Origin: Heliophilum fasciatum
Lineage (GTDB): Bacteria > Bacillota > Desulfitobacteriia > Heliobacteriales > Heliobacteriaceae
DNA: 64,000 nt
Assembly: GCF_004341395.1 (NCBI RefSeq)
Contig: NZ_SLXT01000009.1
Coordinates: 1-64,000 of the forward strand
Reading direction: 5' to 3'
Numbering within the stretch: the first letter of the stretch is position 1; every line of letters starts with the position of its first letter. Shown here piece after piece: positions 33,183 to 53,675 of the stretch. The notes below the pieces were generated by a model, which saw only the letters and a list, made by a program, of their open reading frames with translations, was not told the DNA's origin and made no database searches. Made by a program: the position numbers and the translations under genes.

Positions 33183-34181
33183 GTGGCTGAGGTACTTTCC
33201 CAAGCAGAAATTGATGCATTACTAGCCGCCCTCGCCAGTGGTGATGTTACGGCCGATGAGGCTAAGCAGGAAGAGCTGGCTTCCAAGATCCGCATGTATG
33301 ACTTCAAACGGCCGAATAAGTTTTCTAAGGATCAGATTCACACACTGCAAGTTATTTATGAGAACTATTGCCGTAGCTTAACTACTTATTTTTCGGCCAA
33401 TCTGCGTACGCTTGTGCAAATTTCCGTGATGTCCGTTGATCAGTTGACTTATGAAGAGTTTATTCGATCAATACCTAACCCAACGATCATCAACATTTTC
33501 ACCATGGCCCCTTTAGATGGCAATGGTATCATGGAGATTAACCCGAATATCGCCTTTTCCATTATTGAGCGTCTTTTTGGCGGGTTGGGTCAAGCCCCTG
33601 AGAAGATCCGTGCTTTGACGGAGATTGAACAGTCTGTATTTCAACGTACAACGCGACGTATGCTCGACAATTTTACCGAAGCATGGGAGAACATTGCCCG
33701 TGTAAAAGCCCGTTTGGAATTGATTGAGACCAACCCGCAATTCATTCAGATTGTCGCGCCCACTGAAATGGTTGTGCTAATCACCATCTCATGTAAAATC
33801 GGTGGCGTTGAAGGTTTGATGAATATATGTCTACCTTATATTTTGTTAGAGCCGATTATTAACAAGTTAAGCGCTCATTTCTGGTTTTCCAATACAGGAA
33901 AAGAGCGAACACCGGAACAACTGGAAGTTCTGCGTAATCGCCTTGAAAGAGCTGCCATTCCCTTATCTGTGTTGCTAGGTCGAACAACGTTGACCATTGG
34001 TGAACTTCTGGATTTGCAAAAAGGGGATGTGATCCAACTCGATAATCGTGCTGATCAAGAATTAGAGATTTTGATTGGTCAACGTCCCAAATATCGGGGG
34101 CGTCCAGGCACATTTGGTGCCAAGATGGGCATCCAGATTGTTTCAACCTTAAGTGAAGGAGTTGAGCTCGATGATGAATAG
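33183..34181 (+). CDS. fliM: Flagellar motor switch protein FliM
   Basis: C-ring protein of 332 residues. The N-terminal [15 protein letters not shown] is the CheY-P binding motif; the middle CheC-like domain includes [22 protein letters not shown]; the C-terminal SpoA domain (about 255-325) pairs with FliY. GTG start preceded by GGGAGGTGGGG. It overlaps fliY by 11 bp. Confidence 0.96.
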
Positions 34182-35700
34182 CGGCGTCTTGTCACAAGAA
34201 GAGATTGATGCCTTGTTACGAGGCGCAGAGATTCCGGAAGGTGATACGGAAAATGAATTAGACTATAGTCATCTCGATTTCACTGATATGGAAAAAGACG
34301 TTATCGGTGAGATCTCGAACATTTCTATGGGTACGGCAGCCACGACGTTGTCTACGCTGTTAGGGCGCAAAGTTGATATTACAACGCCACAAGTTTCTGT
34401 AACATCTAGGTCAGATATTGAAAAAGATCATCCTGCTTACTTTGTTGTCGTTGATGTAAAATACACTGCCGGTCTGGAAGGTAACAATGTCCTAATCATT
34501 CATCAAAAAGATGTAGCCGTCATCGTTGATTTAATGATGGGTGGTGATGGAACGGCGCCACCGGTTGATCTGACAGAATTACATTTTAGTGCGATTTCGG
34601 AAGCGATGAACCAGATGATGGGTTCAGCTTCCACCTCTATGGCGACGATGCTCAATAAAAAAATTGATATCTCGCCGCCTGATCTTAACTATATAAACTT
34701 AGCTACCGAGAAATTAGAATATCCCATTGGCGATCCGATCGTGAAAGTTTCTTTTCGCATGGTTATCGAAGGGTTAGTTGACAGTGAATTAATGCAGATC
34801 TATCCCATTCCCTTTGCGAAGATGTTGGTACGTGGTTTAATTGGTGACCCCTCTGAACCTGGTATGGGGGCAGAAGAAATACCTGTGTCAACTGCGATGC
34901 CGGAAGTACCGGGGATGATGCCGGAAGCACCAGGAATGATGCCGGGAGCCCCGGGGATGATGCCGGGAGCACCGGGGATGATGCCAGGGGCACCAGGGAT
35001 GATGCCGGGAGCCCCGGGGATGATGCCGGGAGCACCAGGGATGATGCCAGGAGCACCGGGGATGATGCCAGGAGCACCGGGGATGATGCCAGGAGCACCG
35101 GGGATGATGCCGGGAGCACCAGGGATGATGCCGGGAGCACCAGGGATGATGCCAGGAGCACCAGGGATGATGCCAGGAGCACCGGGGATGATGCCGGGAG
35201 CACCGGGGATGATGCCGGGAGCACCAGGGATGATGCCAGGAGCACCAGGGATGATGCCAGGAGCACCAGGGATGATGCCGGGGGCACCGTCTGGTATGGG
35301 TAGTTATCCCGGTTGGGGATATCCACCACCGGCTTATGGGAACTATCCACCATCACCCAGTCCGATGCCAGTTCCGCCTCCAGTGCCAGTACAACCTGTG
35401 CAATTTACACCACTTCAAGAACAAGCTACGGGTAAGGATCTCACCAATCTTGGATTGATCATGGATGTGCCCTTACAAGTCACCGTGGAATTAGGGAAAG
35501 CCAAAAAGACGATTCGAGATATTCTGGAACTTGGACCTGGTTCCGTCATCGAACTTGATAAACTGGCCGGTGAACCCGTTGACATCTTGGTCAATGGGAA
35601 ACTGGTAGCTAAAGGGGAAGTGGTGGTTATTGACGAAAACTTTGGCGTCCGAATCACCGATATTGTTCAACCGATGGAGCGTATCTTAAATTTGCAATAA
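34171..35700 (+). CDS. fliY: Motor switch phosphatase FliY with a heptad tandem repeat linker
   Basis: C-ring protein of 509 residues, longer than the roughly 380 of B. subtilis FliY. In order: an N-terminal CheY-P binding motif ([11 protein letters not shown], 6-16), a CheC-like phosphatase domain with both active-site pairs intact (Glu47/Asn50 in GEISNISMG and Glu144/Asn147 in SEAMNQMMG), a repeat linker of 18 heptads GMMPGAP (248-373), a Pro/Tyr-rich segment with PPP motifs, and the C-terminal FliN domain (about 415-505, [19 protein letters not shown]). The repeat accounts for most of the extra length. ATG 34171 has AAGGAG upstream. Confidence 0.95.
34912..35289 (+). repeat. 18 x 21-bp in-frame tandem repeat in fliY
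   Basis: Exactly 18 units of 21 bp with no indels, each encoding Gly-Met-Met-Pro-Gly-Ala-Pro; only unit 1 differs in protein (Glu for Gly). The DNA differences among units are otherwise third-position synonymous changes (CCG/CCA, GGA/GGG, GCA/GCC). All six frames across it tend to stay open, which produces false ORFs. Confidence 0.97.
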
Positions 35701-35718
35701 AAAATGGAGGTTTTGAAA

Positions 35719-36081
35719 GTGTCAAATCGGATTTTAATTGTGGATGATGCAGCTTTTATGCGCATGATGGTGAAAGATATCCTGACAAAAAACGGGTATC
35801 AAGTTGTTGCGGAAGCTGAAAATGGTGCAATTGCCGTAGAACGCTGGAAAGAACATAAACCGGATTTGACGACGATGGACATTACGATGCCAGAAATGGA
35901 TGGAATTAATGCAGTGCGGGCAATCCGGGCGATTGATCCGAATGCACGTATTGTCATGTGCAGCGCTATGGGGCAACAAGCGATGGTTATCGATGCTATT
36001 CAAGCGGGTGCCAAGGACTTTATCGTTAAACCTTTTCAGCCGGCCCGGGTACTTGAAGCAGTTCGTAAAGCCTTAAGTTAA
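35719..36081 (+). CDS. cheY: Chemotaxis response regulator CheY
   Basis: Single receiver domain of 120 residues. The acidic pocket (Asp10/Asp11 in VDDAAFM), the phosphoacceptor Asp54 in TTMDITMPEMDG and the conserved lysine in FIVKPFQ are present. GTG 35719 is preferred with GGAGG 8 bp upstream; ATG 35704 would put that site inside the gene. CheY-P would bind the EIDALL motifs of FliM and FliY, encoded just upstream. Confidence 0.95.
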   Translation: MSNRILIVDDAAFMRMMVKDILTKNGYQVVAEAENGAIAVERWKEHKPDLTTMDITMPEMDGINAVRAIRAIDPNARIVMCSAMGQQAMVIDAIQAGAKDFIVKPFQPARVLEAVRKALS

Positions 36082-51533: not shown

Positions 51534-52922
51534 ATGCTCACAGTGCTAACAGTAGCAGGTATCATCATTATGATTATTGGTATTGGACTGATTCTAAAAG
51601 AGCAATCGGAAAAACACCTAGATGGGGAAGAGTTAGGTAATTGGCAACAACGTCAAAAAGAAGCACAACGGCTTCAAAACGATCTGGATTTATTGATGCG
51701 TACCTTAAGTAGACGCAGTGAAGAGGCAATCGAAAAATTGCGTGTACAAATTGAACAGGGTCGGCAATTAACATCACAATTAGAAGTTGAACGAGCCTAT
51801 ATCGCGGAAATGAGCCAAGATATTTCGGCGAAACGCAAAGAACTTTTATTGCATGCCCAAGCCATAGCACCCACACCCACTGTGGTTGCTGAAGCTTTTG
51901 TAGCATCGCCAAGTGAAGCCTCTGTAATGGTCACAGAGCCCTCAACGGCAGAAGCGCCTGTAATGGTCGAGGAGTACGAAGCTCCAGCGGCAGAAGCGCC
52001 TACAATGGTCGAGGAGTACGAAGCTCCAGCGGCAGAAGCACCTGCAATGGTCGAGGAGTACGAAGCCCCGGCGGTAGAAGCGCCTGCAATCGTCGAGGAG
52101 TACGAAGCCCCGGCGGTAGAAGCGCCTGCAATCGTCGAGGAATATGAAGCCCCAGCGGCAGAAGCGCCTGCAATGGTCGAGGAGTACGAAGCCCCAGCGG
52201 CAGAAGCGCCTGCAATGGTCGAGGAGTACGAAGCCCCAGCGGCAGAAGCGCCTGCAATCGTCGAGGAGAACGAAGCCCCAGCGGCAGAAGCGCCTGCAAT
52301 GGTCGAGGAGAACGAAGCCCCAGCGGCAGAAGCGCCTGCAATGGTCGAGGAGTATGAAGCTCCAGCGGCAGAAGCACCTGCAATCGTCGAGGAGTACGAA
52401 GCTCCAGCGGCAGAAGCGCCTGCAATGGTCGAGGAGTACGAAGCCCCGGCGGCAGAAGTGCCTGCAATGGTCGAGGAGTATGAAGCCCCGGCGGCAGAAG
52501 TGCCTGCAATGGTCGAGGAGAACGAAGCCCCAGCGGCAGAAGCGCCTGCAATCGTCGAGGAATATGATGCTCCGGGCGTTGAGACACCTGTTTTAAAAGA
52601 TAAGGTTGTTTCGATTAATGATTATGCAACATTATTAGAGGCACCCTCAGAAGTTGAAGCACCGGAGAGTGGATTGATCTCCTATCCATTGCGTCAATAT
52701 GCACAGATTCAAGAGCTTACAAAACCTCAAAAGCCCGAGCGCAATTTAGCCCAACTTTTCCCGCCTGAAAAAGGAGATCCCCGCCTATGGCCACGGGAAG
52801 AACGTTATGAGAAAGTAGGCCCGTTATATCTTCTGGGGGTAAGTGATGAAGAAATTGCGGAGTTTCTGAATTTAGGAAAAGATGAAGTTAAGCTCATCCG
52901 CCAACTCCGGAGGCAGGAGTAG
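51534..52922 (+). CDS. SwrB-like membrane protein with 15 acidic tandem repeats
   Basis: Protein of 462 residues: an N-terminal membrane helix (about 3-21), a coiled coil (35-108), 15 repeats of 14 residues of the type MVEEYEAPAAEAPA (144-353), and a C-terminal segment KVGPLYLLGVSDEEIAEFLN then LGKDEVKLIRQL that looks like a small helix-turn-helix. Helix, coiled coil and this C-terminus match the layout of SwrB, the flagellar assembly activator encoded next to sigD in B. subtilis, which lacks the repeats and is far shorter (about 165 residues). Family link by layout and place; sequence identity is not checked. AAGGAGGCG lies before the ATG. Confidence 0.7.
   Translation: MLTVLTVAGIIIMIIGIGLILKEQSEKHLDGEELGNWQQRQKEAQRLQNDLDLLMRTLSRRSEEAIEKLRVQIEQGRQLTSQLEVERAYIAEMSQDISAKRKELLLHAQAIAPTPTVVAEAFVASPSEASVMVTEPSTAEAPVMVEEYEAPAAEAPTMVEEYEAPAAEAPAMVEEYEAPAVEAPAIVEEYEAPAVEAPAIVEEYEAPAAEAPAMVEEYEAPAAEAPAMVEEYEAPAAEAPAIVEENEAPAAEAPAMVEENEAPAAEAPAMVEEYEAPAAEAPAIVEEYEAPAAEAPAMVEEYEAPAAEVPAMVEEYEAPAAEVPAMVEENEAPAAEAPAIVEEYDAPGVETPVLKDKVVSINDYATLLEAPSEVEAPESGLISYPLRQYAQIQELTKPQKPERNLAQLFPPEKGDPRLWPREERYEKVGPLYLLGVSDEEIAEFLNLGKDEVKLIRQLRRQE
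51963..52592 (+). repeat. 15 x 42-bp in-frame tandem repeat
   Basis: Fifteen units of exactly 42 bp; the last is degenerate. Each encodes a 14-residue Glu/Ala/Pro unit, with exchanges ATG/ATC (Met/Ile), TAC/AAC (Tyr/Asn) and GCA/GTA (Ala/Val) among units. The exchanges appear in blocks of shared variants, suggesting duplication or gene conversion. Spurious open frames exist on both strands. Confidence 0.97.
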
Positions 52923-52931
52923 GAGGGGGAT

Positions 52932-53675
52932 ATGGTGAACGAAGATCGTACAAACGTTGACCATGACAAAAGCATGGTACCGAGCGTAGGGATGAAAGTC
53001 TTTCTAAGCGGTGCTATGTTATTTATGATTAGTGTATCACTTTATGTTTGGGGTCCAACTGATGTGGCTTCTACGGCTGTATCGTCAGCACCACCTGAGC
53101 AAGAAAGCGTAGCGCCACCGCAACCTGAAGCAGAAGATTCAAAGCCGCAGGGGATAGCAGCCGGAACTGCCGCTACTCCAACGATGACAGGCACAAACAC
53201 CCCTATTCAGCCTGCGGCGACCGCAAAAGGAACTGCTTCAGAGCCATCGACACCGAAAAAAACTGTTGACACTACATCCCCAGCGAAAAGAACTTCTGAA
53301 GAAACAGCAGCAAAGAAATCTACGACCACGGCCGCCGTAAAATCACGAGTTACGACTGAGCCGGCTGCTTCGGCGCCAGTGAAACCACAGCTAAAACAAG
53401 AACCGCTTGCCGATAAAGTTCCAGTGAAACCGCGAACAGAAGAAGAACCACTTACCGACAAAGCTCCAGCAAAACCGCGAACAGAGCAAGAACCGCTTGC
53501 CGACAAAGTTCCAGTAAAACCGTGGACCGATGAGGAACCAATTGCTGAGAGAGCGTCGACAAGACCGGAACCGGCACAAGAACCGCCGGCATGGCTTAAT
53601 TATAATCAGCCATCGCAAGCCCCTAGAGAAGATGATTGCCCAACGTGGTTGAAATGTGTGAAATCTCATAAATAA
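52932..53675 (+). CDS. Single-pass membrane protein, Pro/Ala/Thr/Lys-rich
   Basis: Unrecognised protein of 247 residues. A short polar N-terminus leads into a membrane helix (about 22-40, KVFLSGAMLFMISVSLYVWG), followed by a low-complexity Pro/Ala/Thr/Lys/Glu segment with four 15-residue repeats of type KPRTEEEPLTDKAPA (151-210), and a short C-terminal end containing PAWLNYNQPS and CPTWLKC. Probably anchored with the long part outside or in the cell-wall zone; orientation is not certain. GGAGGGGG precedes ATG 52932, 9 bp after the SwrB-like gene. It is the last gene before the terminator. Confidence 0.7.
   Translation: MVNEDRTNVDHDKSMVPSVGMKVFLSGAMLFMISVSLYVWGPTDVASTAVSSAPPEQESVAPPQPEAEDSKPQGIAAGTAATPTMTGTNTPIQPAATAKGTASEPSTPKKTVDTTSPAKRTSEETAAKKSTTTAAVKSRVTTEPAASAPVKPQLKQEPLADKVPVKPRTEEEPLTDKAPAKPRTEQEPLADKVPVKPWTDEEPIAERASTRPEPAQEPPAWLNYNQPSQAPREDDCPTWLKCVKSHK
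53382..53561 (+). repeat. 4 x 45-bp in-frame tandem repeat
   Basis: Four units of 45 bp encode KPQLKQEPLADKVPV, KPRTEEEPLTDKAPA, KPRTEQEPLADKVPV and KPWTDEEPIAERAST. The units are more diverged than the two larger repeats in the cluster, which suggests an older duplication. Confidence 0.9.

Follow-up and report, generated by a model that had tools for sequence, protein, structure and literature searches.

A long in-frame array of GMMPGAP heptads in the inter-domain linker of the flagellar switch protein FliY of Heliophilum fasciatum

The flagellar switch proteins FliM and FliY bind CheY-P by means of their N-terminal peptides. FliY of Bacillota and Thermotoga (378 aa in Bacillus subtilis) contains such a peptide (EIDALL), a CheC-like phosphatase domain with two active-site helices (PDB 4hyn), a disordered-looking linker, and a FliN domain (1o6a, 1yab), and its gene is located after fliM. 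The same domain order and all of these features were found for FliY of H. fasciatum, which is encoded in the 64,000-nucleotide stretch of DNA analysed here (the window; contig NZ_SLXT01000009.1, Table 1). Unlike the FliY proteins compared in this study, it has a linker of 187 aa instead of 54-159 aa, two thirds of which consist of one and the same heptad. A Gly/Met repeat in a bacterial machine is likewise known from the C-terminal (GGM)n tail of GroEL, which was long thought to be flexible and is reported to adopt polyproline II in part (PMC12571646). This tail differs from the FliY array in that it belongs to a chaperonin, has only ~4 repeats, is free rather than a tether between domains, and shows no homology. 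In SctQ/YscQ/Spa33 and in T. maritima fliY (FliN*), translation from an internal start is reported to yield a FliN-like domain as a protein of its own (PMC4832279), whereas for fliY of the window such a product is only a candidate, with start signals that are weak and not conserved.

Table 1. Features of the fliY locus of H. fasciatum (positions in the window)
Feature	Position	Strand	Basis
fliM, upstream neighbour	33183..34181	+	Pfam FliM (2.9e-72) and FliMN_C
fliY CDS, 509 aa	34171..35700	+	ORF from ATG 34171; start choice inferred
N-terminal FliM-like peptide, predicted CheY-P-binding motif	34180..34218	+	sequence
CheC-like phosphatase domain, two ExxN-type active-site helices	34282..34869	+	Pfam, PDB, sequence
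Degenerate edge unit TAMPEVP	34891..34911	+	in-frame reading
Tandem array, GMMPEAP then 17 perfect GMMPGAP, 21 bp each	34912..35289	+	TRF, in-frame reading
Pro/Tyr/Gly-rich remainder of the linker, resembling the whole linker of sister species	35290..35388	+	
VQPVQFTPL, motif closing the linker	35389..35415	+	linker comparison
FliN-like SpoA domain (FliMN_C)	35458..35667	+	Pfam, genome search, PDB 1o6a, 1yab, 8umd
cheY-like response regulator, downstream neighbour	35704..36081	+	sequence
fliO, after the cheY-like gene	begins 36112		Pfam

The longest open reading frame of fliY opens earlier than the start given in Table 1, at GTG 34153. We placed the start at ATG 34171 because AAGGAG is located 9 bases upstream of it and the sister proteins begin with MMSSGVLSQ; with this start, the last 11 bases of fliM are also the first 11 of fliY. 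The assignment to FliY, already made in a first-pass annotation of the window, was confirmed by the domain matches: the N-terminal half matches Pfam CheC (8.6e-31, in two stretches) and CheX (6.8e-09), the C-terminal part matches FliMN_C (1.3e-27), and a PDB match, 4hyn, is annotated as a CheC / FliN fusion protein (E = 4.5e-42). Both ExxN motifs are legible in the CheC-like part, and FliM of the same window begins with a peptide nearly identical to the N-terminus of FliY. CheC-like domain, SpoA domain, N-terminal peptide and a place beside fliM in a fli/che operon (fliL-fliM-fliY-cheY-like-fliO) are all present. A search for FliMN_C gave exactly two matches per genome, FliM and FliY, in nine of nine family genomes and no separate fliN in any of them; FliY would therefore have to take the place of FliN in the ring. 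In one of these relatives, H. modesticaldum Ice1, which is listed as flagellar-motile (PMC9147875), fliY is broken after ~63 codons by an insertion (L102:3404-6764, genome G004) carrying a DDE transposase of 540 aa (DUF772/DDE_Tnp_1_6). This severs the N-terminal peptide and the first phosphatase helix from the remainder of the gene, which is open from an internal TTG.

The array is located in the linker between the CheC-like and FliN domains, and its 21-bp unit keeps the reading frame, both as described in the first-pass annotation. That annotation also counted 18 perfect heptads. The 18 in-frame units and their 126 residues were found again, but only 17 of them (34933-35289) are perfect GMMPGAP, the unit at 34912 being GMMPEAP. 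TRF reported the array at 34896-35288 with a period of 21, 18.7 copies, 92% match, no indels and a score of 611. The heptad autocorrelation of the linker was 120, a value reached by none of 200 residue shuffles, and methionine makes up 21% of its residues. Among the 17 perfect units five positions vary (3, 12, 15, 18, and 21), each of them the third position of a four-fold degenerate codon, so that the differences, first described as almost all synonymous, are entirely so within these units. The longest exact repeat within the array is 62 bp, and four-gamete violations among the variable sites are a sign of earlier duplication or exchange. The RNA of the array (34900-35300) is predicted to form a single long hairpin (-191 kcal/mol, z = -6.2) made of two-base-pair steps with 1x1 mismatches between them, similar to triplet-repeat hairpins. 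An antisense open reading frame at 34763-35356 was rejected as a gene and regarded as a by-product of the stop-free 21-bp unit.

We subsequently compared the linkers of 49 FliY genes, defining the linker as the segment from the end of the CheC-like part to the start of the FliN part. The 48 other genes were from the class and the phylum, mostly from genomes picked with long open frames, and although this sampling over-represents the upper end, none of the other linkers (median 110.5 aa) is as long or as regular as that of the window. Without its 18 units the window linker would shrink to 61 aa and be among the shorter ones of the observed range. The linkers of the 48 others are rich in P, Q, A, and G; those of the eight family relatives comprise 89-126 aa with 26-41% proline, and GMMPGAP is absent from all eight. 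The best-kept part of the otherwise free linker is the motif V-Q-P-(V/A)-Q-F-x-x-L, which lies shortly ahead of the FliN domain; the strict pattern V[QKE]xxxF was kept in 42 of the 49.

Several FliY linkers of other Bacillota contain short tandem repeats of other motifs that were significant by residue shuffling. The linker of G204 (L103) shows heptads of the Met/Pro/Gly type (NPPQGGM, FPPQGGM, YPPQGGM and similar), that of G465 (L104) GMYGMPQQPQ decads, those of G073/G076 (L054, L059) PPPQAP-type repeats, that of G005 (L012) PPPGYGS repeats, and a further one (L046) QPQ-type repeats, while the linkers of G103/G295/G406 contain many GMP runs. The repeats of G204, G465, G073/G076, and G005 occupy the same place in the protein and are likewise short and rich in Pro, Gly, Met, and Gln, but they have fewer and less regular copies than the window array. 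Because their motifs also differ, an independent origin is likely. The first-pass annotation knew of no such Met/Pro/Gly repeat in FliY. For the class of repeat as such, this is not correct, given the (Y/F)PPQGGM heptads of G204, the decads of G465 and the GMP-rich linkers. For the unit itself, no distant FliY carrying it was found: in a scan of ~85,000 species genomes for the tandem unit in any codon form, in a collection that may omit the host genome, the only match came from a MAG of the Armatimonadota, where an unrelated protein of PKD-like type, packed with MPGM/GSGG runs, carries the unit. Judged from the sequences compared, the GMMPGAP heptad is lineage-specific, and the array is a more extreme case of a feature that other FliY linkers also have. 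Further candidates were dismissed. The phmmer matches to the RNA polymerase II CTD and SF3A2 cover the repeat region only and reflect low-complexity matching at equal period, not homology; the CTD consensus YSPTSPS differs from GMMPGAP. Treponema fliY offers no parallel, since the paper in question deals with point heterogeneity in cheC-fliY and not with repeats.

The best reading of these results, to which we assign a probability of roughly 0.78, is a lineage-specific lengthening of a disordered tether between the phosphatase and rotor halves of FliY, a tether that is expandable by in-frame duplication and whose peptide is kept by purifying selection. Speaking for it are the intact domains on either side, FliY as the sole FliN-like protein in the family genomes, the length range and the repeats of other FliY linkers, the in-frame arrays elsewhere in this genome and the purely synonymous variation of the 17 units. 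An ancestral proline-rich linker with an MPEVP/MPEAP-like seed may have been the starting point, and the seed would have been multiplied by in-frame 21-bp tandem duplication, through slippage or unequal exchange. Heptads of Gly, Pro, Met, and Ala would be soluble, uncharged and either unstructured or polyproline-II-like, presumably with no specific binding partner. With the FliN half held fast in the C-ring, the phosphatase half could reach CheY-P on neighbouring FliM subunits. Disordered chains generally scale as 0.55 nm x N^0.588. The reach estimated in this way is ~8.7 nm for 110 aa versus 11.9 nm for 187 aa, with a 2.5-fold lower local concentration for the longer linker; the likely role is that of a longer leash for the predicted phosphatase half. 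The methionine content of 21% speaks against the tether reading, as it is unusual for such tethers. Furthermore, sister linkers drift freely and the 17 units are identical in peptide, which is stricter than a mere spacer needs, and a heptad-specific function is therefore possible. A link to EF-P was also considered and dropped: the pausing of B. subtilis FliY at SPP164-166 (PMC6613710) would fall in the CheC part and not in the linker.

One such specific function would be an elastomer-like or self-associating tether serving bundle motility, given that H. fasciatum cells swim in bundles (PMC9147875), another the use of internal starts that set the FliY:FliN ratio; together we regard these as unlikely. 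It is somewhat less likely still that the array is a contingency locus, in which unit number changes fast by slippage and produces cells with differing tether length and CheY-P turnover. The frame-preserving unit, the near-identity of the units with exact repeats up to 62 bp, the four-gamete violations and the long hairpin of the strand (z = -6.2), which may favour slippage, are all compatible with such a locus. But synonymous sites have diverged by 32%, and the array is thus not freshly made. In addition, one unit more or less would change the end-to-end distance by ~2% and the local concentration by ~6% according to the scaling estimate, a step hardly felt, so that slippage by a single unit would be nearly silent.

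The array could also be neutral filler, its pure peptide being an accident of the recent expansion of a small array with synonymous differences, and array expansion is indeed a habit of this genome. To count arrays we ran TRF, with a score of at least 100, on the window together with 20 contigs sampled at 20 kb apiece (464 kb, 50.3% G+C; published genome 50.9%, PMC9147875). This census yielded 12 tandem arrays, 9 of them in the 400 kb that remain without the window, which had been chosen for its own array. The period is a multiple of three in all 12, and each of them lies in an open frame; in-frame tandem arrays are common in the H. fasciatum genome. The same census over 200 kb each gave 2 arrays in H. 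convoluta and 8 in H. modesticaldum, and array richness is therefore not confined to H. fasciatum. The H. fasciatum genome also encodes the photosystem Fx-type motif PCLGPAYGGTC, as do seven of eight other family genomes, which marks them as heliobacteria. Several individual arrays were recorded. At 51937-52561 of the window, a 42-bp, 14.9-copy in-frame array (APAAEAPAMVEEYE) is part of a protein of 462 aa that has a hydrophobic segment at its N-terminus and matches no Pfam family, and the next gene contains a second, 45-bp array (53395-53522). The GerQ spore-coat protein of H. fasciatum carries an MPGVMPGT-type Met/Pro/Gly repeat (L067:9261-9468). On the same contig as the window (C9, ~73 kb; L071:8780-9523), a 1062-aa open frame contains ~20 copies of RGPRPEGQG; this array was dropped from the pN/pS comparison, because the pattern matched the exact peptide and pN was 0 by construction.

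For the 17 perfect FliY units we obtained pN = 0 and pS = 0.32, a comparison favoured by the fact that these units were selected for being perfect. With the GMMPEAP unit added, pN/pS was 0.02, and with TAMPEVP 0.14; for the 42-bp array at 52 kb it was about 0.3. We then simulated neutral evolution of 17 units by block duplication, block deletion and point mutation and sampled at pS 0.22-0.45. None of the 2,215 samples, which are mutually non-independent, was a single-peptide array. From the minimum count of five mutations, P was 0.0008 without constraint, 0.035 at a constraint of 0.3, and 0.18 at 0.13. The earlier proposal that the peptide is under selection therefore stands as far as zero constraint is concerned, which the simulation rejects, while mild constraint (pN/pS about 0.3) is rejected only marginally. 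On these sequence data, some purifying selection on the array peptide appears well supported, whereas selection for the exact heptad beyond that seen in other repeats of the genome is not supported. The P values of 0.035 and 0.18 under constraint leave some room for neutral filler, but with a P of 0.0008 without constraint and with single-peptide arrays missing from the simulation, we consider it a slim chance.

Ribosomes might furthermore start inside the array, at the GGAG-N8-ATGATG present in most units, and produce a separate FliN-like protein as in SctQ/YscQ/Spa33, which would provide a genome lacking fliN with additional FliN domains (FliM:FliN 1:3). In T. maritima, fliY gives rise to FliN* (residues 235-343), and 1:3 FliM/FliN* complexes have been reported (PMC4832279); as mentioned above, none of the nine family genomes has a separate fliN. 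A search for the 16S 3' end with GGATCACCTCCTTTCT found nothing in the draft genome, and a general anti-SD sequence was therefore used for pairing energies. The predicted pairing was -5.7 to -6.6 kcal/mol for 16 of 18 first-ATG sites (-6.6 for most array sites), placing them among the strongest ~6% of in-frame internal ATGs. The real starts of the window, however, have a median of -11.1, and 88% of them equal or exceed the array median in strength. Comparable sites are mostly absent from sister linkers and not conserved in the class, unlike the strong and conserved ribosome-binding site that would be expected of an internal FliN start of the SctQ-C type, and the array RNA is predicted to be strongly folded. 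Moreover, GGAG derives from the GGA-GCN codons of one ancestral unit, so the 17 copies are not 17 independent lines of evidence. We regard such internal starts as very improbable.

The array is real: although the draft genome consists of 73 contigs and the published sequence is Illumina-only (NovaSeq, 300-bp library; PMC9147875), a collapsed or expanded short-read assembly is an extremely improbable source of the array or its unit count, since the units carry distinguishing synonymous marks, the frame is uninterrupted up to and including a complete FliN domain, and the longest exact repeat of 62 bp is shorter than the common Illumina read length (150 bases assumed), so that unique assembly is expected and the count from these short-read data is probably correct.

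Taken together, we favour the lengthened tether. FliY is at the same time a part of the rotor and a CheY-P phosphatase, and its rarely studied linker would set the reach of the phosphatase. The linker of H. fasciatum is a natural extreme (187 aa versus a median of ~110), and the compared FliY proteins form a graded series from 54 aa upwards. On this basis, a laboratory FliY, for example that of B. subtilis, would allow a direct test of whether tether length matters to switching. The array also suggests that a core machine protein has room for minisatellite growth within a disordered segment.
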